Both the position numbers and the translations under genes were made by a program. The notes beneath the pieces were generated by a model. That model was not told the origin of the DNA. It was given only the letters and a program-made list of their open reading frames with translations, and ran no database searches. DNA of 46,198 nucleotides from an uncultured Bacteroidota bacterium (lineage in GTDB: Bacteria > Bacteroidota > Bacteroidia > Bacteroidales > UBA12481), in contig CAIXKO010000530.1 in NCBI GenBank assembly GCA_903919925.1, positions 1 through 46,198 on the forward strand. Direction: 5' to 3'. Of the stretch, positions 4,785 to 44,142 are shown one piece after another. Position 1 is the first letter of the stretch. Every line of letters starts with the position of its first letter.

Positions 4785-7700
4785 TTAGGACAAAGTGGTT
4801 TTCGTTTTTATGAAATCAAACTCTGCCTGGGTCTCCCGGATGGAAGCAAAACTGACCGTCCCCGGCTTCTCATGTGCAAGGATCACCTGCCTCATCATCT
4901 GCATGTTCGCCTGAAGCAGAGCTGTTATCTGCATGGCCGACTGCTGACTGGTTCCCCCGAGGTCGGGGTACATTCCCCCGGCATATTGGTTTACCCTGGC
5001 AGCGTTAATTGCACCTAGTATTTCAGGGAAATTGGCTTTGATATTCCGGGTGGTGGGCCCATCGATCACGATCTCCGGTTCACGCTCCGAGAAAAGACCG
5101 AGAGTCGGTTTTGAATAGTAGCCGGTCTTGACATTACCCAACAGGGAAGCCTGGTAGGTTCGTCCATCATTTGCTCCGATAACCGGGTATTTCCCTTTTG
5201 CAAATTGCTGGGATTGGATCAGCGCGACGCTGGCTCCAGTCCTGAGAATTGCTGCGCCGGTCAGGAAAGCACGCAGTGTTTGAGTCAGATCGGCATTTAC
5301 TCCCGCATTGGAGTTCACCCTGGCCACTTCCATTACGCCCTCGATAATTGTTTGGGCAATGGCGATTTTCTGCTGACGTTGAGCATATTTTTTTTCAATG
5401 GCTGCTTTTTGTTTGTCGGTAAGCCCGGCAGCTGCAAGCTCCCGGTTCTTGGATGCCTCATACATAGTGGTAACGGCATCCATGATGGTATTGGCTCCGC
5501 GAGCCCAATCCTCCATTTGCTGAAACTGCTTTTCTGCCACTTGCTGATCCAGGGCTTTGATTTTGTCAGTGTATTCGGTATAGCCGATCAGTTTGTCGTC
5601 CAATTCTTTCTTGAGTTTAGCCTTCTGACCTTCATAAGTTTTCTCCATCCAGTAATCCAGTTCCAATTGCTGCTGGACATACCAGTCTGGTAACTTGGCG
5701 TTTTCACCGGCTTCCTTCAGATATTTCTTGCTGTCCTCATCCCATTTTTCATAGAATTTGTCATACTCTTCATATAACTGCTTCGAAGCCTCAGCAGTTT
5801 TTTTCTGTCCCGCTTCCCTGGCAGCGATAATGACATCCTGGATCTTTTCTTCTTCGTCTGCCGTACTTTGACCGTGTTCCTTAAGCCGATCTATGGAGGC
5901 ATTCAGGTAACGGACCTCTTCGGTATCCAATTTTTCGAGGTAAACGTCTTTATCATCAATGCCTTTAGCATACTGAGCTTTAATGATAGCGTTCTGGTTT
6001 TTGTGGAATTGCTCAATATCCTTAAGAGCCTCAGCACGTTTGAACTTTTCTTCATCCCCACCATCGAGGTTGGACCCACGGGCTTTCTTTAGCTCCGCAT
6101 CAACAGCAGCAACCTTTTTCTGCAGCCGGATATATTCCGTTGTTCCGATTTTGGCATTATTCAGGGCCAGGGTGTACCGATCCAACTTTTCCTCCATCAT
6201 CACAATGGACTCAGTACCGATTTTGTCGCCGGTGGCTTCTGCCGTAAGGATATCGGTGAGTGTTAGCTTTTGATCCTTTAAAGACTTTATCATGTCTCCT
6301 GATTTCCCCAGGGCAACATCAATATCCGCAACCGCTTTCAGGCCATTGGCTCGTGCCTTTTCGAGTTTACCGGAATTGCTCCAGGTGGTGAGGAATTGCC
6401 AGGCATTGAGTTGGGTGTTATCCGCTCGAAGTTCACCCCGTTTGGATTTTTGAAGGTCATAATTTGCCTCGGCCAGTTTTATTGTCGCATCCAGCTGCTG
6501 CGCTAGTTCCCGTTTCTGATCCACTGACATCCGGTTCAGTTTATCCTGATCTTCGGATAGCATGTCATACGATGCACTAAGTTCCTGATTGCTGGTTGTT
6601 AAGGAATCAACCAGTTCCTTTTTGCGCGCCTCCATGGCGATGGCTTCCTTACTGTTACGGGCATAGATCATTGAAGCTGCGATCAGAGCCGTGATCCCGG
6701 CAATAACCAAACCGACCGGATTAGCCGCCTGGGCTGCATTCAGGAGCCACTGGGTTACAACGGCTGCTTTTTGAATGATGGTTAGTTTTGCTATTTGAGC
6801 AGTCTGGGCCTCGGTCATGAGGATTTGAAGAGCAGTAGATTTAATCGTCAGCAGGTCGGCAGTACGTTTCCATGCGGACACTGCGATATGAGCAATCAAT
6901 GCTCCATTGTAAGCCAGGACTGCTCCAACAAGAGAAACAATCAGCACCCGGTTATCGCTGATAATTTTAGGGAGCGCCATCATGGTCCGGAGGAAAATAT
7001 TAAGAGCGTTGGTGGAGAAGATCATGGCCGGGGCCAGCTTTTCACCCACCTCAATATACATGAGGGTGACTTTGTTTTTTGCCTGGGCCAGCTTTGCGGC
7101 CATGTTATCGGTATTCTTCCCGGCCTGTTCAAAGGCAACCTTGGTTCCGGTAACCCCTTCGGTAAACCGGTTGATGGCATCCCGGTTCATCACCAACACT
7201 TCGCCCATTTTAGCCTGATGCACCCCAAATATTTTAACGGCTGATTCTCCGCTCTTGTAACGGGCGCTGAGTTCATCAATTGCACGGTTGATATCAAAAA
7301 CCCCTTCTTTGAACCCGATGCCGCGTTTTCTCATTTCCAGAAATACCCGGTCCAACGCGGTTCCTGCCACTTCGGCCATCTGGAATTTTGGAGCAATTCC
7401 TTCGATGATCCCGGTCATCTGTTCGATGCTGATACCCATCAGGTTGGCGGTGGTACCTGATTTTTCAAGTACCTCCGTGAGGTAAGGGATCTCCCCGGCA
7501 CCGACCAGGGCGCCTGCTCCCAGGACGTTAATAATCCGGTTGACTTCCGACGCTCCAAGATTAAACTGGTTCATCGTGGTGGTGAGGGCCAGTGTGGCGG
7601 GTTCGAGTTTGGATTTGGCAGCTTCCGAAAGCACGATTGCTGCTTCCGTGACTTTTGCTAGGGCTTCCTTGTTTTTCAGCAGCTCCGGTCGCTGGGATCC

Positions 7701-8207
7701 TATCTTGGTGTATGCATCCACAATATCGGTGGCCGATTGTTTGATCCGGACTCCGGTTTCGGTGATGGATACCGAGGAATCTTTCGCTTTCTGACCGAGC
7801 CATTGCAGGGAACGTCCGGTCAAGCCTGTGAGGGCCGAAAGATTATCCAGGCGTTCCTCCATCAGCATTGAGGCTTCCGTGGTTTTCCGGAATGCCATCA
7901 CAATACCAACAATGGTGGCTATCGCAGCTACCCCGACTGCCTGGAAGCGATTGAACCAATCGCCCATGGCGCCCATGGTTTCTTTCCAGGAGCGGTTCAT
8001 GTTTTTCAATTGCAGGGAATGCTCGTTCAAAATTCCTTTCAGAGACCGGATCTTTTCCCCGTGAGCCACGTATTCTTTAGAACCAACGATCATCTTGGCC
8101 TGTTCATTCACCAAAAGCTGCATCTCGGCACGGATACTTTTGATATCGTTATTGATCTGCTTGCCATTGATATACAAGTAAATCTCCCGGGTGTATTCTC
8201 TGGCCAT
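4785..8207 (-). CDS. Phage tail tape measure protein (TP901-like)
   Basis: 1140 aa; N-terminal coiled coil; LTGLTGRSLQWLGQKAKDSS..., central TM-rich segment, Ala/Lys-rich coiled-coil C-terminus. Confidence 0.88.
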   Translation of the reverse strand: MAREYTREIYLYINGKQINNDIKSIRAEMQLLVNEQAKMIVGSKEYVAHGEKIRSLKGILNEHSLQLKNMNRSWKETMGAMGDWFNRFQAVGVAAIATIVGIVMAFRKTTEASMLMEERLDNLSALTGLTGRSLQWLGQKAKDSSVSITETGVRIKQSATDIVDAYTKIGSQRPELLKNKEALAKVTEAAIVLSEAAKSKLEPATLALTTTMNQFNLGASEVNRIINVLGAGALVGAGEIPYLTEVLEKSGTTANLMGISIEQMTGIIEGIAPKFQMAEVAGTALDRVFLEMRKRGIGFKEGVFDINRAIDELSARYKSGESAVKIFGVHQAKMGEVLVMNRDAINRFTEGVTGTKVAFEQAGKNTDNMAAKLAQAKNKVTLMYIEVGEKLAPAMIFSTNALNIFLRTMMALPKIISDNRVLIVSLVGAVLAYNGALIAHIAVSAWKRTADLLTIKSTALQILMTEAQTAQIAKLTIIQKAAVVTQWLLNAAQAANPVGLVIAGITALIAASMIYARNSKEAIAMEARKKELVDSLTTSNQELSASYDMLSEDQDKLNRMSVDQKRELAQQLDATIKLAEANYDLQKSKRGELRADNTQLNAWQFLTTWSNSGKLEKARANGLKAVADIDVALGKSGDMIKSLKDQKLTLTDILTAEATGDKIGTESIVMMEEKLDRYTLALNNAKIGTTEYIRLQKKVAAVDAELKKARGSNLDGGDEEKFKRAEALKDIEQFHKNQNAIIKAQYAKGIDDKDVYLEKLDTEEVRYLNASIDRLKEHGQSTADEEEKIQDVIIAAREAGQKKTAEASKQLYEEYDKFYEKWDEDSKKYLKEAGENAKLPDWYVQQQLELDYWMEKTYEGQKAKLKKELDDKLIGYTEYTDKIKALDQQVAEKQFQQMEDWARGANTIMDAVTTMYEASKNRELAAAGLTDKQKAAIEKKYAQRQQKIAIAQTIIEGVMEVARVNSNAGVNADLTQTLRAFLTGAAILRTGASVALIQSQQFAKGKYPVIGANDGRTYQASLLGNVKTGYYSKPTLGLFSEREPEIVIDGPTTRNIKANFPEILGAINAARVNQYAGGMYPDLGGTSQQSAMQITALLQANMQMMRQVILAHEKPGTVSFASIRETQAEFDFIKTKTTLS

Positions 8208-9167: not shown

Positions 9168-9888
9168 GTCTGTTGGTTTTGATGCGTTTATCGAGATACC
9201 GGAGTACCGTGGATATCGGAAGGTTGGCGTACTCGGCTTCCTTTACGATGTCGTCCCCAACGATGGCATCATATACATCGATCCAGGAAGATTTCTCTTT
9301 TTTAGTCTGGTCCATGGCTGGCTCGAATACGTTCGGGTATTGTTCCACGAACCACTGACGAATCAGATAATAATTGAGGATAATGGCCTCTTGCTCATCA
9401 GCCGGGAGACCCGCAATGATTGCCGAATTGGGTTTGATATCGGCTTCCCGGAATACTCCAGTGCGGTAATAGCAGGATATGAATTTTGCTAAGTACTCTT
9501 TGTCGCCGGTGGCGGCGTATTTCTCGAAATAGGTTTCAGCGAAGATGAAGGTTCCGAATGTTTCGTCCTTTAGCCTGGGCTGTGGGCGTGAGAACTTACC
9601 GATCGCAGGGAGAATGAATTTGTAGTAGGGGTCATGTGTTTCCAGAAACCCCAGAAGATTGATAATGCAGAACTTTTGGTAAGCAGAAAGTCTTTTGACC
9701 AGTCTCTTTTTGATATTCAGCATCGATGCAATCAATTCATCATCCGTGATGGTCTCCTGCATGACCCAGACGGCTGCGATTAACTGCTTTGCAGATAATT
9801 CGCTCCAATTATCCGGATGCTGGCAATTCAGCTTCCGGGAATACCGGAGCCATCTAACGGGGCAATATTCCAATGCAATCGGAGTCAT
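9148..9888 (-). CDS. Hypothetical phage protein
   Basis: 246-aa ORF overlapping neighbours on both sides. Confidence 0.5.
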   Translation of the reverse strand: MTPIALEYCPVRWLRYSRKLNCQHPDNWSELSAKQLIAAVWVMQETITDDELIASMLNIKKRLVKRLSAYQKFCIINLLGFLETHDPYYKFILPAIGKFSRPQPRLKDETFGTFIFAETYFEKYAATGDKEYLAKFISCYYRTGVFREADIKPNSAIIAGLPADEQEAIILNYYLIRQWFVEQYPNVFEPAMDQTKKEKSSWIDVYDAIVGDDIVKEAEYANLPISTVLRYLDKRIKTNRHEGKIR

Positions 9889-28652: not shown

Positions 28653-29840
28653 TCACTTCAGCGTATAAAAGACAATCACCGGATTATCCTCAACTGTCAT
28701 TTTCTCAATTTGCGTAATTAATTCCGGTGGATAGCTGAAGTTCCTATTGGCTTTTATCTTTGGCAGGGCCTCGATAAGTTCTCCTGCCCCGACCACCGAA
28801 ACCCATTCTCCGGATGAGGCAACAGTCATGAAAACTTTAGAGGTGCAAAACAGAATATCATCGCTATCTAATCCTTCTTCCAGGTGCCATGATTTATTTT
28901 CTGACTCGTTGATCATTACATGTGCCCATATGTAGCTTTTCTGTTCATTTTCCCGCGTTAAAAGAAATTGGTAATAGCCACTCCCGGAAAGAACTCTCCC
29001 CACTCCGATTATTAATTTGCCAGGCGGATAATTGAGACCTTGAATAACTGCTCTCATATAATCTTGTGTTGAATAATGGCCTGAGCCAAAATTGCAAATT
29101 ATCTTTGGTCGCATGGAATCCTGGTCAATCCTCCAGATGGTATCCATACCGACGCCGGTATAGAAGAATCCTGTGAGCGGGCTGCCCTCAAGACTGCCAA
29201 ATCCTGATTGAGTTTCCTTTGTCACCTTAATGTATCTGGCTGTATCTGAAGTCTTGGCGTTGATAATGTTAACCTTATAATCAATATAACTTGTGAAGGC
29301 GCTCCGGTTCCCGTCAAAAATCCGACAGTTATTTAAACCATTTCCGAATGGAATTTCCCGATTCAACGTTCCATTGAATGAGTATTCCAATATTTTAAGC
29401 ATCCGTGATGGATAGATCATTACCCTCAGCGGATTCTCAAAAACACTCATGTCATTGACATCCGAATATTCCCCCGGGCCTTTACCCACTCTTCCGATAT
29501 TGTTCAGGAATTTACCCCCGGAAGTGAAATGCAGTAACTTACTTTCTCCCCCAGATTTTCCACCTCCCCCTGATGTTGAAACCAGGATGGAATTTTTACC
29601 GGCATAAAGGTTCTGAATGGATCCGATCAGGCATCCCGGATTTGTTTCCAGCGGTACAATCCTTATACTTTTGGCTATTTCAGACAATTTGGCAATAGGT
29701 GGAAGATGCGCCGGATCAATTGACAGAAGGATTACATCTTTTTGATTTTGGTGCTGCTTGGCTGGTTGACATGAAACCAGAAATGAAAGAATTAACACAA
29801 ATATAAAAGACCGGAAATACACAAGAACAGTAGATTTCAT
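28653..29840 (-). CDS. 6-bladed beta-propeller lipoprotein with Gly-rich insertion
   Basis: Lipobox LVSCQ; NIGRVGKGPGEY; STSGGGGKSGGESK insertion; C-terminal VEDNPVIVFYTLK. Confidence 0.83.
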   Translation of the reverse strand: MKSTVLVYFRSFIFVLILSFLVSCQPAKQHQNQKDVILLSIDPAHLPPIAKLSEIAKSIRIVPLETNPGCLIGSIQNLYAGKNSILVSTSGGGGKSGGESKLLHFTSGGKFLNNIGRVGKGPGEYSDVNDMSVFENPLRVMIYPSRMLKILEYSFNGTLNREIPFGNGLNNCRIFDGNRSAFTSYIDYKVNIINAKTSDTARYIKVTKETQSGFGSLEGSPLTGFFYTGVGMDTIWRIDQDSMRPKIICNFGSGHYSTQDYMRAVIQGLNYPPGKLIIGVGRVLSGSGYYQFLLTRENEQKSYIWAHVMINESENKSWHLEEGLDSDDILFCTSKVFMTVASSGEWVSVVGAGELIEALPKIKANRNFSYPPELITQIEKMTVEDNPVIVFYTLK

Positions 29841-29898
29841 AATGGTTGTTAAGGTTTGTTCATGACCAGTATGGAGGCATCAGTTAAAGCATTTACGG

Positions 29899-31095
29899 CT
29901 ATTTTAGGTTAACAATCATAACCACCGGATTATCATCATCTTTCAAGCTGGTTACCATTTTAACGAAATTATCACGATCGGCCTGACTTTTGAATTTCTT
30001 ATTTTTCATTTCTCCGCTCTGCCATTGTTGTAGCAGATTGACCGGCTGGATGAAACTGTAAACCTTATTCACTCCGTCGGTTTCTTTTGGCCAGAAATCC
30101 TGTCCCCCGTCCAGATCATTTTCAACTAATCCTTTATCCGTTTTAAACCCACTCATTTGGCCATCCTTCAGAGAAACCAACCCGATCCGGTTTGATTTTT
30201 GATAAATAAACCGAACAAACAAAGTGCTTTTAGTTTCAACCAGATTAATATAATTGATGTAATCGTATTTCACTTTTTCGTATTTGGCGCTTTCGTACCA
30301 TACCTCATCCGGGATACGGCTTTTGCCAAAATCAAGTACATACCTGGGCAGGAAGGCTCCCTTGTCGCTAATTGCAAAAACGGTATCGCACATTTGCTGA
30401 TAGGTCAATCTTGTTAAGGGGTTTATGTAGAAATTACCGAATTCGATAACACCTCCAATGGGGAAGTTAGTTTTGGTTTGATACTTCTTCGTCACATTCC
30501 CTTTTTTATCTTGCAGATAATAGAAAAAGGCCGATGAATCCGGAACCGGATATCCAAATGGCGCAAGAAAGATATGTTGATCATTGGCTAATGGCGCGAA
30601 CCACCAACTTGCATAGGCGACAGGACATTCGCTAAGCTTTTGACCTTCTGCCGAATAGCACGACAAGTGGTTGGAGCTTTTAGAAAACAGATAGACCTTA
30701 TCGCCAGTGGGGGAAGCCTGGATATTGAATGCCCCAAGATGTTCCAACGGACCCTTTCCAATAGTGCCAATTTGCCGGATAAATTTCCCCTGCTTGTTAA
30801 ACAGGAAGACTTTACCATTATCCCGGTCCTTTGCAAAAATATGATCGCCTCTGACTATATATTGTGAAGGAGTAAAAAAGCAATCTTTGGTGGTTTCCAA
30901 TTTTACGTACGAAATATCGGTAGCAATTTCAGAGAGTTTTATTGACCCGGAGGATTTGGCGATCTGCTCCAGGTTTATGGTTAGGATTTTTCCATCTGAC
31001 GGAATATTAGAAGACCGGAAACTGCACAAAGTTCCAAATATCACAAAAATGACAAATTGGATTGTCCTTCGCTGAAATGATCTTGCAATTTTCAT
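29899..31095 (-). CDS. 6-bladed beta-propeller protein
   Basis: LSEIATDISYVKLETTKDC; GTIGKGPLEHLG; DLDGG; C-terminal DDDNPVVMIVNLK. Confidence 0.85.
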   Translation of the reverse strand: MKIARSFQRRTIQFVIFVIFGTLCSFRSSNIPSDGKILTINLEQIAKSSGSIKLSEIATDISYVKLETTKDCFFTPSQYIVRGDHIFAKDRDNGKVFLFNKQGKFIRQIGTIGKGPLEHLGAFNIQASPTGDKVYLFSKSSNHLSCYSAEGQKLSECPVAYASWWFAPLANDQHIFLAPFGYPVPDSSAFFYYLQDKKGNVTKKYQTKTNFPIGGVIEFGNFYINPLTRLTYQQMCDTVFAISDKGAFLPRYVLDFGKSRIPDEVWYESAKYEKVKYDYINYINLVETKSTLFVRFIYQKSNRIGLVSLKDGQMSGFKTDKGLVENDLDGGQDFWPKETDGVNKVYSFIQPVNLLQQWQSGEMKNKKFKSQADRDNFVKMVTSLKDDDNPVVMIVNLK

Positions 31096-31186
31096 AGGAT
31101 GGCTTGTTTTAAAAAGTGTTTAAATAGAACGTTATCCGAACGATTCAATTATGTCGTAAAATCTTAAAAGTGTTAAACTCTATCTG

Positions 31187-32371
31187 CTATTTATATCGGC
31201 CTACAATCAAAACAGGATTGTCCGCATCGCCCAGTTGGGCAATAGTTTCTTTTAATTTTGAGCGATAGGGCTCGGCAAATTTCGGATCAGCCAGAGCGGT
31301 TTTGGCCTGCTTCAGCAAATCAATGGCCTGGTAATCATACTGCATTATTCCATTTCCCTGAAAAACAACAAACTGACTCTGGGTTGAAGGGATAAATTGA
31401 TTGGTTGGGTCGAAATAAAGAGGGCCTTGTTTAAAAACTCTTCCAGCCTTTTTATCCAGGATATAATCTATTATGTCTCCCTGGGTGGAGTTTGATGTAA
31501 TGTTTTTAGTTAGATAGAAGTTGTAGAACGAGACCCAGTCGGTCGTTTCAAAGTTCAGGAACATACTTTTGTGACCCGCTATTCCTCTGGCTGGATTTAC
31601 ATCTCCATGATCAAATACCATAAATGGGATCAGCTGATTTCCCTGAACTGTGTAAATGGTATCCCTGTCTCTTACATGATACCGGAAAAGAAACTTGCCG
31701 TTAAACAATGTAACGCTTTGCATCCTGATATTCAGGCCCAAAGGGGAATCAATTTTTCGAATGAGATTCCCTGATAAATCCTGTTCATACAGATAGCAAT
31801 TCTCGTCAGCTTTTTTTGATGGTCCGGCCGGTAACACCCGCAGCCGGGTATCTTCCGTAAGCTTTATATCTGTATCCATTCCTGAAAATGCCTTCTTCAG
31901 GTTCCCCAGATACTTCCCCGACCTTAAATCAAAACTTAAAAAATAGCTTTCTTTGGCGTAATCATTCAGGTACAAAATCTGATTCTTCTCGTCAACCACC
32001 CATTTTGAAAATATATATTCCGTTGGACCTTTTCCCTCGTGAACCAATTTCCGTATAAATCTTCCGTCAGAATGAAACTGGAGAATACCAAACTTGGGCT
32101 GCTGAGCCAAAATGTAATCCTTAGTGACATAATAGGTTGCCTCGCCCAACAGGCACTCTTTATTCGTTTCCAACCGGACGAATTTAAAATCTTGCGCAAA
32201 ATCCGACAGCTTTAGTGACAGGGAATCCTTAACTTTTTTAAGATGAATCAGATACTCGCTATCCTTGCCGTGCTGGATGATGCTGACTGTTTCATCATCC
32301 TTTTGCCGGAAGCCCAAAAGCAGGAGAAACAAAAGAAACGTGATCTGGAACAAACTTTGCTTTTTTGTCAT
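31187..32371 (-). CDS. 6-bladed beta-propeller protein, signal peptide without lipobox
   Basis: KFVRLETNKECLLGEA; VHEGKGPTEYIF; C-terminal GDADNPVLIVGRYK. Confidence 0.8.
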   Translation of the reverse strand: MTKKQSLFQITFLLFLLLLGFRQKDDETVSIIQHGKDSEYLIHLKKVKDSLSLKLSDFAQDFKFVRLETNKECLLGEATYYVTKDYILAQQPKFGILQFHSDGRFIRKLVHEGKGPTEYIFSKWVVDEKNQILYLNDYAKESYFLSFDLRSGKYLGNLKKAFSGMDTDIKLTEDTRLRVLPAGPSKKADENCYLYEQDLSGNLIRKIDSPLGLNIRMQSVTLFNGKFLFRYHVRDRDTIYTVQGNQLIPFMVFDHGDVNPARGIAGHKSMFLNFETTDWVSFYNFYLTKNITSNSTQGDIIDYILDKKAGRVFKQGPLYFDPTNQFIPSTQSQFVVFQGNGIMQYDYQAIDLLKQAKTALADPKFAEPYRSKLKETIAQLGDADNPVLIVGRYK

Positions 32372-32422
32372 TGTATAAGGTTAAGTATCTAAAAATGATT
32401 TTATTATCCTGATTGGAGTTCT

Positions 32423-33580
32423 TTAAAAATCTTTAAACCGATAATACACCAAAACTGGATTACCATCCATGGTTACCTTCTCTGCTTGGATAAACCCCGG
32501 AACCTCTCTCCGCAGAATTACCTTTTGGGCTTCTGTGAGTTTACTGATGGATTCAAACCAATTAATACCATCAATAACTGAAACAAACCACGATCCGTTC
32601 GTCTGCCTGGGGATGTTAACCGGACAACCCTTGAAATTTCCAATAGAATTTAAGGTGTCAGCAGCGAGGAATCGATGATTTTTTGATTGGTGATCCAGCA
32701 CCCAGGTCCCGCGGGGTTCACCTCCCATGCGTATCGAGGCAGCCAGATGAGATGGCGTATTGGTCAGATAAATAAGTCCGTGTACCTTTTGTTTTTCGTC
32801 GTATGATTTAAAAAAATCGCCTGGAGTTGAAAAGTATTTGAGTGTATCGATCGCGGACGAACCAAAATCAAGGGTTAGCAAGGTATCGATATGGTCAGGC
32901 CAGATTTCATAGATCCTGGTATCGAAAACCTTGTGGTAAAGTACTGATCCTGCAGTTGTTCCAGCTGCAAATCCCCTGCACTTATCTCCGTCAACGGGCT
33001 TTGGGAAAGGAAAGCAAAGCTGTTGAACCCGGCCATCCCAATTGATGAGGGCAAGTTCGAAATTCTCTCTGTTTGCACCCATTCTCCCGGCATGAACGGC
33101 GATGAGATCCTTGTTAATCAATTGATATGGATAACCTTCGAAAGAAGTTTTGGCAGATCTAAGGAATTCACCTTTCAGGTTAAAGTAGAGCAATTTCCCG
33201 ATCTGGTAGTCATTCATGAGCAATTCCGATCTTTCTTCATTGACTGTAATATCGCCTACTGAAACGTATTCTCCGGGGCCTTTCCCATTTGTACTTAACG
33301 GATGAAGAAAATTCCCGGTGGAATCGAAACAGCTGAAACCATTGCTGTTCGCTATGATAATCAAACCCGGGGCATACTTAATTTCATAAACATATCCGAT
33401 CTGGCACTCCGGTTTGGTTTCCAGAGGGATGACCCGGATTTCTTTGATGATATCGTCCAGCGCAACGGTCTGGGTTGGCCAGCTCTTAGGATCGACGCGA
33501 TAGTTTGTGTTTGTAGATAGTGGTGAAGTGCAGCTGAACAGTCCGATTAGGGAAAGAATAATAATAAAATATCTGGTCAT
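32423..33580 (-). CDS. 6-bladed beta-propeller lipoprotein
   Basis: Lipobox LFSCTS; IRVIPLETKPECQIG; STNGKGPGEYVSVGD; MDGNPVLVYYRF. Confidence 0.85.
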   Translation of the reverse strand: MTRYFIIILSLIGLFSCTSPLSTNTNYRVDPKSWPTQTVALDDIIKEIRVIPLETKPECQIGYVYEIKYAPGLIIIANSNGFSCFDSTGNFLHPLSTNGKGPGEYVSVGDITVNEERSELLMNDYQIGKLLYFNLKGEFLRSAKTSFEGYPYQLINKDLIAVHAGRMGANRENFELALINWDGRVQQLCFPFPKPVDGDKCRGFAAGTTAGSVLYHKVFDTRIYEIWPDHIDTLLTLDFGSSAIDTLKYFSTPGDFFKSYDEKQKVHGLIYLTNTPSHLAASIRMGGEPRGTWVLDHQSKNHRFLAADTLNSIGNFKGCPVNIPRQTNGSWFVSVIDGINWFESISKLTEAQKVILRREVPGFIQAEKVTMDGNPVLVYYRFKDF

Positions 33581-33601
33581 CAGTCAAAAGTTTAATTCAG
33601 C

Positions 33602-34759
33602 TCAATTCTCCTTGAGTTTTGTCTTGATTATCACCGGATTACTATCCTCTTTCAGACCTTTAACGACATCCAGGTATTTCTGGTTTGGATTCTTAATCCA
33701 GCCTTCCTTTTGAGCGGACATCAGATAGATAGCTTCAATAGCGGTATACAGATTACCATTTAAGTAATTTTTCTCAAACCGGAATGGAAATCCACCATCC
33801 AGATCATTCGGAATTCCCATTGCACCAGGCTGCACAACCGTTATTTTACCGGTGGCCGTATTGCAGATTGCAGCGTAATCTTTATCCTGATATTGGAATT
33901 CAACGCAAAATGATTTATTACCAACAGGTTGCAAGGAAAGATTGGAAATATAGTTGCTTCTCTCCGCCTTTGTTGCACTTTTATAATACAATTCATCAGG
34001 CAGCATTTTCCCGTTGGTATTAACAACAGCAAACGGCCTTACTTCGTTTCCTTCTACAACATAAACGGTGTCACTCCGGGTAGGAACAAAAAGATCTTTA
34101 TCACCCATCCGGCAAAAAGAAGCGTATTGGTAGAGTGGTGGGATTTGAAGTTTACCGCCTGACGGCATGGTCATGAAGGGTTTGACCATCCCCTCAGTAT
34201 TAAATATAAAATGTCGCCCGAAAGCGGAACCCATCTGCCCTGGCATGAAAAGAATGCCCAAATAAGTACCGTTTTGCGTCCGGAATAGTTCCTGGGCGGG
34301 GTAAGGAACTTTGAAACTCCTTAGATGCTTTCCTTTAAGAGAATAGAATATCAGGTTCGCTTCGGTGCTATTGTAAACAATAATCTCATTTGCTTTATCA
34401 TCCCAAAACACCGTATTAATTGCACCAAACTCCCCGGGTCCTTTGCCAATATTGCCTATGTCATTGATATACTTCCCTTTCTGATCAAAGACTTTTATCT
34501 TGTTATCGCGGGTGGCCACAACCAGGAGATTCCCGGCTGGCAGAATAATATTAATTCCGGCCAAAAGAGATTTCGTAGTCAGCTCCAATGGAATGTAAGA
34601 GATTTCTGTCGCCAGGTCACTCAACTTGAGTTCAGTTGTTTGCCCCAGATTTTTACCCAGTTCAAATTCGGGAATCGATTTCTGGGCTTCGGTTTCAAAG
34701 TGGCTGAAGAGAGCCATAAGAAACAAACTCATTACAGGAAGGATGTTGGAAGTTTTCAT
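33602..34759 (-). CDS. 6-bladed beta-propeller protein, signal peptidase I-type signal
   Basis: Start at MKTSNIL; LSDLATEISYIPLEL; IGNIGKGPGEFG; NDLDGGFPF; EDSNPVIIKTKL. Confidence 0.85.
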   Translation of the reverse strand: MKTSNILPVMSLFLMALFSHFETEAQKSIPEFELGKNLGQTTELKLSDLATEISYIPLELTTKSLLAGINIILPAGNLLVVATRDNKIKVFDQKGKYINDIGNIGKGPGEFGAINTVFWDDKANEIIVYNSTEANLIFYSLKGKHLRSFKVPYPAQELFRTQNGTYLGILFMPGQMGSAFGRHFIFNTEGMVKPFMTMPSGGKLQIPPLYQYASFCRMGDKDLFVPTRSDTVYVVEGNEVRPFAVVNTNGKMLPDELYYKSATKAERSNYISNLSLQPVGNKSFCVEFQYQDKDYAAICNTATGKITVVQPGAMGIPNDLDGGFPFRFEKNYLNGNLYTAIEAIYLMSAQKEGWIKNPNQKYLDVVKGLKEDSNPVIIKTKLKEN

Positions 34760-34838
34760 TTGGTAAGAAGTGGTGTAAGTATATTGTTGAATTATAGACA
34801 CATAGATCAAAGTTCCATAGGATATTTATTGGGTTCAC

Positions 34839-39270: not shown

Positions 39271-39525
39271 TTAAATGTTTTGTTCGCACTGATAAATGAA
39301 TTCAGGTTCAATGTTTGTCGAAAGCACGGTGAGTTTTATTCCCCTTTCGTCAGCCATCTTATAGGCCAGAGTAAGCATTTCGACAAAGTTGTGAGAGCGG
39401 TACACCTTCGAGGTAACCTTTTGGTAATATCCTTCCTCAGCTATCCACACCAGGCAGAGCGGAGCATGAGGATCCTTTATCGGATGGAAATGCTGGGAAG
39501 TGCATAGGTAAACTTGCAGATTCAT
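39271..39525 (-). CDS. Small hypothetical phage/mobile-element protein
   Basis: 84-aa ORF whose start overlaps the stop of 39522..39827 by 4 nt. Confidence 0.5.
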   Translation of the reverse strand: MNLQVYLCTSQHFHPIKDPHAPLCLVWIAEEGYYQKVTSKVYRSHNFVEMLTLAYKMADERGIKLTVLSTNIEPEFIYQCEQNI

Positions 39526-39827
39526 AGGTTTTTGGCATTAAATTCATCGAAATGTTCTGCTCTGACAAAATACCGGCAGTACCGGCCCTGTTCTGAATCG
39601 CAGTTCAATGCCTGATAGTGATTGACCCACTTGTCGAATTTGGTTTCCGCATCGGTCAGTATTTCTTTTGAAATCTCGCAAGGCTCTTTCCAAATGGAAT
39701 CAAAAGCCATCTTGCAAGGGTGCAGGAAAACCTCATATCCAGCGTCGTAAAGCTTTCGGGCCTTGCGCTTGTTGACCTGAATGATCTGTTTTCCATGGAT
39801 ATAAATCTGAACGTCTTTGTAAATCAT
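39522..39827 (-). CDS. Hypothetical accessory protein (start MIYKDVQIYIHGKQ)
   Basis: ORF downstream of leader copy A; start chosen 10 nt after the leader hairpin. Confidence 0.55.
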   Translation of the reverse strand: MIYKDVQIYIHGKQIIQVNKRKARKLYDAGYEVFLHPCKMAFDSIWKEPCEISKEILTDAETKFDKWVNHYQALNCDSEQGRYCRYFVRAEHFDEFNAKNL

Positions 39828-39837
39828 AAGATAAATG

Positions 39838-39876
39838 CCGATGCCTTTCGGACTTGTAAGGGTATCAAGCACACCC
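39838..39876 (-). promoter_or_regulatory. Leader element copy A (two-hairpin motif)
   Basis: Minus strand: GGGT-GTGCTTGAT-ACCC-TTACAAGT-CCGA-AAGGCA-TCGG, then CATTTATCTT-ATG. Confidence 0.8.
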
Positions 39877-39887
39877 GGTTGATTGAT

Positions 39888-40436
39888 TTAATGAATTTTG
39901 CAATAGATCTGTCTGCCGGCTTTCTGACAGCAATAATCGCATACCCGACAGTTAAGCGGACAAGTAACCCCATCGATATAATCGTCAGGATCCTTTACCG
40001 CATTGAACTGATTATCGAGCATGAATCCAGATCCTGAGACGGTAAGATTACCTGGAAGATTGGAAAAGTCGAGATCCCGACGGGCTGTATACGTCCAAAC
40101 TGGTTTCTCAAGCAGCAGGGCGATTGCTTTCACTTTAGTTACATCGCCCTGGTTCCGGAAATCACCGGCTTCCGAGGACCGGAGCTTTTCAAATTCAAAC
40201 TTGTTCAGTTCGTAAATGAAAAGTTCCGGAGAGCACATATCCCAGAACTTAGCCTGATGGTTCCGGTGACCTCTAACACCGGGGAAAGCTCGTTCGGGAT
40301 ATTTGGCATAGCAGACTTTCGGATTGCGGCAAAGCCCGAGTTTTTCCGAAAAGCAGCTAAGTGCAGGAGTCATGTTGAAGATCGCGGTTGAGGTATCCTG
40401 CTTTTTGTTGCCGAAGCTGAATAGGGTATGAATCAT
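39888..40436 (-). CDS. Phage Gp88-like protein
   Basis: MTPALSCFSEKLGLCRNPKVCYAKYPERAFPGVRGHRNHQAKFWDM... C-terminal Cys cluster CPLNCRVCDYCCQ; resembles gene-product-88 phage proteins, from memory. Confidence 0.55.
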   Translation of the reverse strand: MIHTLFSFGNKKQDTSTAIFNMTPALSCFSEKLGLCRNPKVCYAKYPERAFPGVRGHRNHQAKFWDMCSPELFIYELNKFEFEKLRSSEAGDFRNQGDVTKVKAIALLLEKPVWTYTARRDLDFSNLPGNLTVSGSGFMLDNQFNAVKDPDDYIDGVTCPLNCRVCDYCCQKAGRQIYCKIH

Positions 40437-40441
40437 GATGA

Positions 40442-41119
40442 CTACGGCATTAAATTATCATCAGCCATCGAGAGGTAACCCTGTTCTGAGAGGATGAGGT
40501 GATCCAGTACCGACAGATCCAGAAATGCAGCTGCTTCCTTGATTTTCTTAGTGATTTTCAGGTCAGCTTCCGATGGAGACAAGTTGCCTGACGGGTGGTT
40601 GTGGGCAAGTATGATGCCTGATGAAAGCCTTTCTACCGCTGCGTTTAGGATCAATCGTACATCGGTAACGGTACCGGATATTCCACCCTGGCTGATCCTT
40701 TTCTGATCGATGATCTGATTGGATCGGTTGAGTAACAGCACCCAGAATTCCTCATGCTGGAGATCGGACATTAAGGGCTCCAAAACTTTCCAGGCATCCT
40801 GAGAGCATTTAACCTTTGGACGGATGGTTGCCGGAGTGGATCTTCTTCTTCGGCCGATCTCGAAGATGGCAGCGATACGGATGGCTCTTGCGGTGGTGAT
40901 TCCATCGATCTGGCACATGATACTGAGCGACATTTTTGCCAGATTGTGAAAATCGTTGCCGGCCAGTACCCATAAGTTCCGGGCACATTCTTCTGAAATT
41001 CCAGCTGCCACGGCCAGAATTTCGATGTTTGATAACGCGCTGGTGCCGGTCTGGACCAGTTTGGCAGCTGCTGAATCGTTCACCTGCCAGGGAGTTGAGA
41101 TCACTGAATCGTACTTCAT
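40442..41119 (-). CDS. radC: RadC-like JAB/MPN domain protein
   Basis: JAMM motif ILAHNHPSGNLSPSEADLKITKKIKEAA; start MKYDSVISTPW placed 11 nt after leader copy B. Confidence 0.9.
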   Translation of the reverse strand: MKYDSVISTPWQVNDSAAAKLVQTGTSALSNIEILAVAAGISEECARNLWVLAGNDFHNLAKMSLSIMCQIDGITTARAIRIAAIFEIGRRRRSTPATIRPKVKCSQDAWKVLEPLMSDLQHEEFWVLLLNRSNQIIDQKRISQGGISGTVTDVRLILNAAVERLSSGIILAHNHPSGNLSPSEADLKITKKIKEAAAFLDLSVLDHLILSEQGYLSMADDNLMP

Positions 41120-41130
41120 GGAAATGTTCA

Positions 41131-41169
41131 CCGATGCCTTTCGGATTTGTTTGAGTATCAAGCGCACCC
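41131..41169 (-). promoter_or_regulatory. Leader element copy B (two-hairpin motif)
   Basis: Minus strand: GGGT-GCGCTTGAT-ACTC-AAACAAAT-CCGA-AAGGCA-TCGG, then TGAACATTTCC-ATG. Confidence 0.8.
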
Positions 41170-41429
41170 AGATTAATGATGCACACTTCCTGGAGCAAGC
41201 ACGGAATTGGAGCGAGTGGCGAAGGTCAGTTTGTGTACCCGCAAACTGAATTCGTGGTGTGCTAATCCATGGCCTGGATGGGAATAGTGGACCGGCGGAG
41301 AGGTGGTCATGGATCCCGAGCGGTTTTCCGGGATTGCGACTACCTTTGTGCAGTCATTAATAATATAATTATCACATCCTTACGGTGCGAAGAGGGATGC
41401 GGAACGTACCGCTGGCCAGTTGATCCGGT

Positions 41430-41700
41430 TTCTTTTTGGTTCTTTTTCTTTTGCGGTGCGAATTGAAAAGAAAAAGAACGATCGCAGCGGCTGAAAAAAT
41501 ATCAAACAGTTGATTCCAACGATTTTCTTTTTGGGTACTTTTTCTTTTATCGTGGAAAGAAAAAGTTCGCTTTAGCGCAAAATTGCGGGGCACATTAAAT
41601 CGACGAAGCATAAGGAGATTAGAATGTAGGCCCGCAATTTTGCTACCAGGCTGCGCCTGGTTACGTCTGTGACCCGACCCCGCCCTAACCCGACTTGGAG
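41430..41700. repeat. Multi-hairpin noncoding repeat element
   Basis: Consecutive perfect inverted repeats: 41439-41452/41466-41479 (14 bp), 41537-41547/41556-41566 (11 bp), 41577-41589/41631-41643 (13 bp), 41645-41650/41656-41661 (6 bp). Confidence 0.75.
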
Positions 41701-41708
41701 GGCGAAAG

Positions 41709-41775
41709 ACTCCATTTTCAGGAAATATGACTCCACGTTTTGGCATCGCACTCCACGTTTCGGACTTATTCCATT
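41709..41775. repeat. Short tandem ACTCC(A) repeats, period about 20-21 nt
   Basis: ACTCCATTTTCAGG (41709), ACTCCACGTTTTGG (41730), ACTCCACGTTTCGG (41750), degenerate ATTCCATTAATC (41769). Confidence 0.55.
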
Positions 41776-41978
41776 AATCAAAATTCCATGATTTGAACAG
41801 GGATCGAGTCCTACATTCAGTGCGGTACTCCGCACGCAAACCTGCGAAGCATGAGCACAAACATGAGGTGTTGTAATCGACACACCATATATATACCGTC
41901 GACACGCGAGTCCTACTCTAGTGATATGATTGGCAATCAATTACCACTGCATTACTGAACAGTCTGGCCAAAAGAAAA

Positions 41979-42002
41979 GAGGGAAGCCGCCAGGCTTCCC
42001 TC
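41979..42002 (-). terminator. Rho-independent terminator of 42020..42202
   Basis: Perfect 10-bp stem GAGGGAAGCC/GGCTTCCCTC with 4-nt loop; minus strand continues TTTTCTTTT. Confidence 0.8.
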
Positions 42003-42019
42003 GATAGATCAGTTAACAA

Positions 42020-42202
42020 CTAATCATTATCATCAACCGATCCATTCTCAATTAGTTGCAGAATTTCTTTTGTATCAGAGAAGATCAGATCAGTCATCCG
42101 TTTAGAGGATACCAACACTTCAGATAACAGTTCATTCATGTGATCAGAGAAGTCACGTTCCTGGATCGACTGATTAACACTGTAAGGAATTGAATAACTC
42201 AT
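42020..42202 (-). CDS. Small hypothetical protein (MSYSIPYSVNQSIQERDFSDHMNELL...)
   Basis: 60-aa ORF 10 nt downstream of leader copy C, with a terminator after its stop. Confidence 0.6.
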   Translation of the reverse strand: MSYSIPYSVNQSIQERDFSDHMNELLSEVLVSSKRMTDLIFSDTKEILQLIENGSVDDND

Positions 42203-42212
42203 GTGAAAGTTG

Positions 42213-42251
42213 CCGATGCCTTTCGGACTTGTATGAGTAGCAAGCACACCC
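42213..42251 (-). promoter_or_regulatory. Leader element copy C (two-hairpin motif)
   Basis: Minus strand: GGGT-GTGCTTGCT-ACTC-ATACAAGT-CCGA-AAGGCA-TCGG, then CAACTTTCAC-ATG. Confidence 0.8.
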
Positions 42252-42427
42252 ATTGATAATCTGAGATTAATGTTGCGCCACAACCTTGAGCAGTCCTGAT
42301 TTTTGGTGAATGGCGCAGGTCAGATTGTTGGATATCAACAGAATAATAGTTGAAAAAGAATCTGAATGCGTGCGAAGCAATTCCGGAATTTCAAGAGGTG
42401 ACCCCTGCGTAGGAAACCGATGGACAC

Positions 42428-42470: not shown

Positions 42471-42761
42471 CTAGAACGGCAGGGGCTCGACCGGACTTGC
42501 CTTCTTGCCGATGCTTTTCAATTTCTTGGCTTTCTTGGCTGGTGCCTGGGCCTCCTGCAACATTTTGGAGTGGTAGCAAGCATGGGTTCTTCCGAACTGG
42601 TCGGTTTCCTTCATCTCAGCGATTTCGAATGTGACATAAGCCACTCCGTCGTACTCATAAGCAATTTCCTGCAACTTTTCCAGAGGCACAGTTACTTTCA
42701 CAATGTTCATTCCCTGGACTTTCTTGCCTTTTCCGATGTAGGACTTCTCAAATTTTGTCAT
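42471..42761 (-). CDS. Small phage/mobile-element-associated protein, Lys/Ala-rich tail
   Basis: MTKFEKSYIGKGKKVQGMNIVKVTVPLEKLQEIAYEYDGVAYVTFEIAEMKETDQFGRTHACYHSKM...; terminator downstream; decayed homolog at 42941-43150. Confidence 0.7.
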   Translation of the reverse strand: MTKFEKSYIGKGKKVQGMNIVKVTVPLEKLQEIAYEYDGVAYVTFEIAEMKETDQFGRTHACYHSKMLQEAQAPAKKAKKLKSIGKKASPVEPLPF

Positions 42762-43542: not shown

Positions 43543-44142
43543 TCAATTAAAAAACCTTCTTTTTACCAAGAGCAAATAATTTATCGTTCGCTTAGATAAG
43601 TATTTGTTTGGATAAAATAATAAACCAATTTGCATGGTTTTTGCATCTACCACAAGAAAGAACGACTTTGTTTGCTTTCTTAAAATCGGTAAAATATTAT
43701 TTTTTGTTTCAAAATAGCGATTGCCGAAAATAGCTTTATTAAGTTGATTAAAAGACTCTGAAGACTGCATAATTATATTGACTGAGTGTACTGATCTAAT
43801 TGGAAAAATATCATTCAGGAGGTTTATTTCTTCAGAAATACACTCATGACAATCAGAACTTGAAAAACAATAAAGTATGGAATACTTATTCCCTAAGACT
43901 TCGGAAATGCAAATACTATCAACTCCATTATACAATTTTATGGAAGAAATAATACCAGATAATGCTATTGAATTATTATCAAACTCATTAAGTAGAATCT
44001 GCGACTCATCTTGAATCTCAAGAACTTCTTTCTGAGCCTTTGAATTAGACTCTATATGCAGAAAGCGATAGACTAAGTATGAATTGATTATGGTAAATAC
44101 AAAGCAGATAATTATAACTAATCTCCTATTAATAATTTTCAT
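43543..44142 (-). CDS. Membrane-anchored thioredoxin-fold-like protein with CxxC (CHEC)
   Basis: N-terminal TM; SILYCFSSSDCHECISEEINLLNDIF; C-terminal KRRFFN parallels KRWFY of 12928..13533; ATGA overlap with the propeller gene. Confidence 0.7.
   Translation of the reverse strand: MKIINRRLVIIICFVFTIINSYLVYRFLHIESNSKAQKEVLEIQDESQILLNEFDNNSIALSGIISSIKLYNGVDSICISEVLGNKYSILYCFSSSDCHECISEEINLLNDIFPIRSVHSVNIIMQSSESFNQLNKAIFGNRYFETKNNILPILRKQTKSFFLVVDAKTMQIGLLFYPNKYLSKRTINYLLLVKRRFFN

Follow-up and report, generated by a model that had tools for sequence, protein, structure and literature searches.

The window, by which we mean the whole stretch of 46,198 nt that was analysed, contains on its minus strand three copies of a 39-nt sequence, each placed shortly before a start codon, together with genes of phage type. 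Positions within the 39-nt element are numbered 1-39 throughout. The features that the text refers to are as follows.

39838..39876, minus strand: copy A, 39-nt leader, from the window sequence and covariation in homologues
39876-39873 with 39863-39860, minus strand: copy A, stem P1
39870-39868, minus strand: copy A, predicted kissing bases of loop 1
39851-39848 with 39841-39838, minus strand: copy A, stem P3
39845-39843, minus strand: copy A, predicted kissing bases of the P3 loop
41131..41169, minus strand: copy B, leader of the RadC-like gene, operon-first form
42213..42251, minus strand: copy C, leader of the 60-aa ORF, operon-first form
39522..39827, minus strand: 101-aa ORF, ATG 10 nt past copy A
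40442..41119, minus strand: RadC-like JAB-domain protein, ATG 11 nt past copy B
39888..40436, minus strand: GP88-like protein without an element of its own, start 5 nt past the RadC stop
42020..42202, minus strand: 60-aa ORF, ATG 10 nt past copy C
42471..42761, minus strand: small protein with a GKGK motif, basic tail and LPF end
41227..41248, minus strand: HPb, the hairpin ahead of copy B, CAGTTTG (41248-41242)/CAAACTG (41233-41227), flanked by TT and AC
41178..41184, minus strand: arm P0 ahead of copy B, GUGCAUC, with complementarity to positions 2-8 of the element
42321..42364, minus strand: HPb, the hairpin ahead of copy C, CAGATT (42364-42359)/AATCTG (42326-42321)
4785..8207, minus strand: phage tail tape-measure protein
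9885..12234, minus strand: DUF6712 protein and an adjoining 446-aa protein

The sequence-only reading, made from the letters of the window, had placed the three copies exactly at these coordinates, and the AUG was found 10, 11 and 10 nt past the last G of copies A, B and C, which agrees with the 10-11 nt that it gave. A scan of the window with the consensus pattern returned exactly three matches, against 0.00 in 100 shuffles, and a repeat search of the window grouped the three copies as one family. The earlier description of the stems also holds: stem 1 is GGGU/ACCC in copy A and GGGU/ACUC in copies B and C, with G-U pairing retained, and stem 2 (CCGA/UCGG) shows no variation among the three. 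The frame relative to the ATG is, as had been noted, the same in A and C and another in B. A homologue of the 101-aa ORF also follows an element copy in genome G004 (L015), and a homologue of the GP88-like gene at L014:10111 does have an element.

A covariance model seeded from the copies and run over Bacteroidota samples, the check that the sequence-only reading had outlined, recovered a larger family. The loci examined contain 106 distinct matches, which come from 14 viral contigs and from 28 of the 393 genomes sampled in the window's order and are mostly clustered on one strand. Two models were made, R1 from 19 copies and R2 from 24, and both comprise the 39-nt core alone, with the flanks left out. 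Applied to the order sample, R2 found the element in 28 of 393 genomes and 21 of 206 genera, with at most 10 copies per genome. The window's own genome holds eight copies by pattern and ten by model search. By pattern search, two further genomes of the window's genus were found to contain the element, and a contig scan with one conserved 20-mer detected divergent copies, including one in the cultured Sunxiuqinia indica (Marinilabiliales, Prolixibacteraceae; L021). The phylum sample of 297 genomes gave only the window's own genome and three weak matches, and the class sample searched with R1 gave, besides the window's own genome, a single weak match. Weak model matches outside the order (L025, L069, L070, L071) were discarded as noise, none having an ATG at +8 to +11.

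Comparison of the window-type sequence with phages and plasmids, and a narrow viral pattern, produced no match, nor did two DNA searches with the element plus the upstream module described below. A wider consensus did detect viral contigs. Pattern scans gave 14 of them in total, and nine of the ten searched over the whole record carry three to six copies each, on a single strand and mostly within a few kilobases. A weak match at L065:1501-1539 (28.1 bits, ATG at +9) precedes a lipoprotein-like gene and is possibly an element copy outside the phage clusters.

Stem P1 of the core consists of pairs 2-16, 3-15 and 4-14, with 1-17 in addition in some copies, and reads GGC/GCC or GGGU/ACCC. An A-rich linker joins it to P3, which consists of pairs 26-39, 27-38, 28-37 and 29-36 around a loop RRGGCA, and three of its four pairs covary freely. 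G-U pairs are present in both stems. The P1 loop may contain an optional hairpin, P2, which also covaries (for example UCCGUC-UACC-GACGGA in L028). Long-form elements with P2, up to about 90 nt, were seen at L021:5518, L022:2997 and 4031, and L023:4116, and further ones at L028:1501, L045:1084, and L073:7818 and 10346.

Covariation was tested on 76 distinct ungapped 39-mers by ranking all 741 column pairs with an APC-corrected G statistic. The top four of the 741 pairs, 28-37, 29-36, 27-38 and 4-14, are predicted stem pairs; their scores of 59-106 compare with a maximum of 18.4 in column shuffles, which leave shared ancestry in place. Each of these pairs is 99-100% Watson-Crick or GU and occurs as several pair types, and these four also rank first among the 61 copies held out of R2. 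In the full alignment, which was fitted to the structure, 132 doubly changed cells were counted; shuffles gave 35, and slid controls no more than 20. The ungapped test matters because of that fitting. A prospective viral scan left positions 28, 29, 36 and 37 free, and all five new copies that it found were paired there (TA, CG, AT, GC and TG), new pair types included, with an ATG 8-10 nt downstream in each. The minimum free energy of the core is not lower than that of dinucleotide shuffles (mean z -0.19), and unusual thermodynamic stability was dropped as evidence for the fold on this account. Since the core is not more stable than its shuffles, a protein partner, a ligand or tertiary contacts such as kissing are likely to be needed.

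The two loops can be paired with each other. G7, C8 and C9 of loop 1 are complementary to G32, G33 and C34 of loop 3. Among 99 scorable copies, pair 7-34 is GC in 90, AU in two and GU in two, and pair 9-32 is CG in 84 and UG in 14; pair 8-33 is mostly CG or UG. Positions 10 and 31 covary (A-G or U-A; rank 6 of the ranked column pairs), as expected if both bases face each other beside a loop-loop helix. In pairs 8-33 and 9-32 only one of the two bases varies, and 7-34 has just two full replacements. We regard the kissing helix as well supported, although less strongly than P1 and P3.

The position of the element relative to genes is fixed. An ATG lies at +8 to +11 behind 95 of the 106 copies, compared with 2.4% at random positions in the same loci, and one further copy is followed by GTG and one by TTG, both at +8. 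The models used for the search included no flanking sequence. The sequence-only reading had argued that conservation acts on the nucleic acid and is not driven by codons, and in agreement with this the reading frame of the ATG meets a stop within the element in 32 of 76 copies. The start-codon frame is interrupted in these copies, and the element is therefore not coding. A coding or chance repeat, for which one could cite only the window copies, readable as open in the ATG frame, retains virtually no probability in view of these stops, the use of all three frames and an expectation of zero by chance. The coding explanation is rejected and can be regarded as already refuted. Stem covariation, fixed place, the lack of a codon signal and the lack of an Rfam match together give strong support to the earlier claim of structure at the RNA level. 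The loop-loop pairing, the optional hairpin P2 and the upstream module of operon-first copies lay beyond what that reading could see. The element is a real structured RNA family.

Covariance-model scores against Rfam 15 placed no family above its gathering threshold at any element copy, in keeping with the sequence-only reading, which could not match it to a named motif. A single weak overlap, with 6A RNA at L022:3038, reached 24.8 bits against a gathering threshold of 41.2 (E 2.6) and is at chance level. No earlier description was found in the papers searched, although large candidate surveys such as PMC8040213 may already list the element without a name. Covarying helices and a fixed 5' place (95 of 106 copies), by which cis-regulatory leader RNAs are recognised, were both found. 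Judged from sequence comparison, we would rate the element as a family new to Rfam 15 within the known class of cis-acting structured leaders. Its deployment is unusual in that the separated cistrons of a phage accessory cluster have one copy each.

The kissing hairpins of guanidine-II RNAs have ACGR loops. The loops of the present element, GNGCYNGAW and RRGGCA in about 100 copies, contain no ACGR, its P1 has three to four pairs, the genes behind it are phage accessory genes, and it has no Rfam match. In architecture guanidine-II (mini-ykkC) is nevertheless the nearest known RNA; as outlined in PMC9094411 and PMC9300104, it has two small hairpins in a 5' leader that kiss through their loops, as predicted for the element. 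The radC RNA motif (RF01754) resembles the element as a leader-type RNA named for radC genes, but it is listed as Proteobacterial (PMC2864571) and has 149 positions, unlike the 39-nt element. Identity with RF01754 was rejected, and a search of 149 genomes from the class to which the window belongs gave no match to it. DUF805b RNA (RF02914) is also a short cis-regulatory RNA but differs in sequence and fold, and its 35-position model matched none of the element copies. A DUF805b RNA was observed above gathering (38.6 bits) at L040:3504-3537 on the minus strand, where there is no element copy; this viral contig carries five copies, the nearest about 560 nt away. STAXI (RF01728) is a structured motif near antirestriction, Ssb and other DNA-handling genes (PMC2864571). 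This neighbourhood is similar to that of the element, but STAXI consists of tandem pseudoknot repeats in Enterobacteriales, whereas the element is a single copy 8-11 nt before a start, and RF01728 gave no match in Rfam scans of the copies. Phage translational operators such as the MS2 coat hairpin, the T4 gp32 pseudoknot and RegA sites lie at the ribosome-binding region. They are likewise phage RNA folds or sites controlling translation there, a role that is putative for the element, but the element differs from them in that its fold is reused before many unrelated genes.

The copies occur in two forms. About 38 are core-only and follow closely after the previous stop, and about 66 have a longer upstream region. 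The operon-internal copies begin about 1-25 nt past the previous stop and have no upstream module, and hence the core alone accompanies each start codon. Overlapping or nearly abutting genes mostly have no element, an effect that is partly built in because the element needs about 48 nt. Many operon-first copies share a strongly covarying hairpin TT[CA...TG]AC, in which the stem sequence differs and complementarity is kept; 25 of 47 have at least seven pairs, compared with about 3% in the control, and there are 28 distinct stems of at least five pairs. This hairpin lies about 55-70 nt before the operon-first copies, is preceded by a small hairpin of NNC-TTCG-GNN type and is followed by TTGAC and further conserved blocks. 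It was seen in the window (41227-41248 and 42321-42364) and in homologues at L040, L042, L022, L074, L075 and L091. The upstream module may be a structured promoter, perhaps one that works as single-stranded DNA, or may belong to a long 5' UTR. The P0 arm is complementary to element positions 2-8 with z = 7.2 in operon-first copies and z = -0.5 in internal copies, and all seven bases can be paired in 20 of the 66 operon-first copies. Pairing of P0 would compete with, and exclude, P1 and the kissing pairs.

The gene most often found behind the element is RadC-like (21 of about 106), followed by an ArdC-type antirestriction gene (13), an unknown 120-150 aa family (12), a small cysteine-rich protein (8) and DUF6573 (4). 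GP88, SymE-like and SLOG-like genes and about 25 single small ORFs make up further cases. Neighbouring families without the element include DUF6712, a family of 450-aa proteins with a single member that matches a portal profile, and a large protein with a P-loop-like motif, which by motif and size is most likely the terminase; no member of the portal-like, terminase-like or DUF6712 families has an element. In the window, the 446-aa protein beside DUF6712 is likely the portal by gene order, without a family match itself. The tape-measure, DUF6712 and portal-position proteins in the window, together with the neighbour families, indicate that the carriers are tailed phages or prophages. The element therefore marks the accessory gene cluster and not the structural genes, and the earlier suggestion that it is shared by phage or accessory genes was right, given the downstream genes and the tailed (pro)phage neighbourhood.

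A regulator gene conserved across the element clusters was sought and none was found. The GKGK protein (about 100 aa) has homologues in 11 element clusters (L013, L016, L017, L039, L040, L042, L044, L073, L074, L075 and L089) and in no case lies behind the element. It has a lysine-rich tail, and several members end in DDLPF, like SSB tips. Its predicted model is mostly beta (pLDDT 77) and found no fold match in the PDB. It is a candidate nucleic-acid-binding neighbour; as a proven partner of the element it was set aside as unsupported, considering the pLDDT of 77, the missing fold match and its occurrence in 11 clusters only.

Because the core stands at the start of each separated cistron, also inside operons, and at fixed spacing, translation initiation is favoured over transcription as the step concerned. 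The element probably controls translation of the downstream accessory genes. A part in translation control, or as a protein-binding leader, which the sequence-only reading had proposed, would suit this anatomy better than the other roles considered. The reading that we consider fairly probable is that of a cis-acting leader of Bacteroidota tailed (pro)phages whose kissing hairpins would place an accessory regulon under translational control set in trans. The element would act at translation initiation of each cistron, the kissed and open states would differ in access for the 30S subunit, and a shared trans-acting protein or ligand would set the state, so that the accessory genes would form one regulon. 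In operon-first copies, P0 paired with positions 2-8 would provide the alternative state. More tentatively, and with some doubt, the element may be a portable 39-nt kissing-hairpin initiation module, either ribosome-recruiting or switchable, that stands ahead of each accessory or anti-restriction gene translated on its own and joins unrelated genes into one RNA-defined regulon in SD-blind Bacteroidota phages.

The main rival, which we regard as unlikely, is a structured ribosome-landing element that recruits the 30S subunit constitutively at fixed spacing and has no switching partner. The narrow range of distances to the start codon (8-11 nt) and the single copy per separated cistron are consistent with such a role, as is the failure of Bacteroidia ribosomes to recognise SD sequences, which PMC9976891 in outline attributes to sequestration of the 16S tail. 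However, the structural genes, which would profit most from strong initiation, have no element, and the upstream P0 arm suggests alternative folding. That arm, with its mutually exclusive P0/P1 pairing in operon-first copies, would also suit a small-molecule riboswitch, a kissing two-hairpin mini-aptamer that would control translation much like guanidine-II, and so would the size, the kissing-loop architecture and the strongly conserved unpaired bases. Several copies per operon would be unusual for a riboswitch, however, and no metabolic theme is common to the downstream genes; this explanation is improbable.

That every separated cistron in a polycistronic unit begins with a copy could also point to RNA processing or stability, with a nuclease or RNA-binding protein cutting or protecting the fold and thereby separating or stabilising cistrons. 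A freely covarying stem with a conserved loop is found in protein-read hairpins, but the start-codon spacing is tighter than processing needs, and we regard this role as quite improbable. It is very improbable that the element acts as a DNA-level site, such as a single-stranded DNA promoter or a recombination or cassette site, and not as RNA. Operon-first copies do come after a hairpin module next to TTGAC, and IS110-family elements insert inside the element, but its strand specificity, its fixed distance to the start codon, the operon-internal copies without an upstream module and the G-U pairs in P1 and P3 argue against a DNA site.

The RNA family described here is compact and covaries clearly, and Rfam 15 does not contain it. 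In a group of Bacteroidota phages it marks the accessory and anti-restriction genes, which it probably co-regulates. Under the translational reading, a 39-nt module at 8-11 nt spacing may offer a testable part of how Bacteroidota and their phages initiate without Shine-Dalgarno pairing. The covariance model doubles as a finder of accessory genes, many of which encode unknown small proteins that may counter host defence.

Paralogous 6-bladed beta-propeller proteins (DUF5128/DUF4934) are encoded in the window at 14565-15812, 28653-34810 and 44139-45290. Together with an RND efflux gene (15930-19112), they flank the phage tail genes and the element cluster and also occupy the region that separates the two, and are either unusual cargo or a host segment.

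Three separate copies, L030:1019-1052, L034:111-144 and L066:139-170 (left end TCCTATGTTTGTAAAATGAAGCATAAG), were seen to be split by insertions, which enter the P3 loop behind AGG. One of the insertions leads into a transposase gene of the IS110 family (Pfam DEDD_Tnp_IS110 and Transposase_20). The three TCC-ended copies lie in this leader, and the five CCC-ended relatives follow other GAGG-type sites, some of which are hairpins. IS110 elements thus appear to target the leader specifically, perhaps with a bridge RNA as guide.
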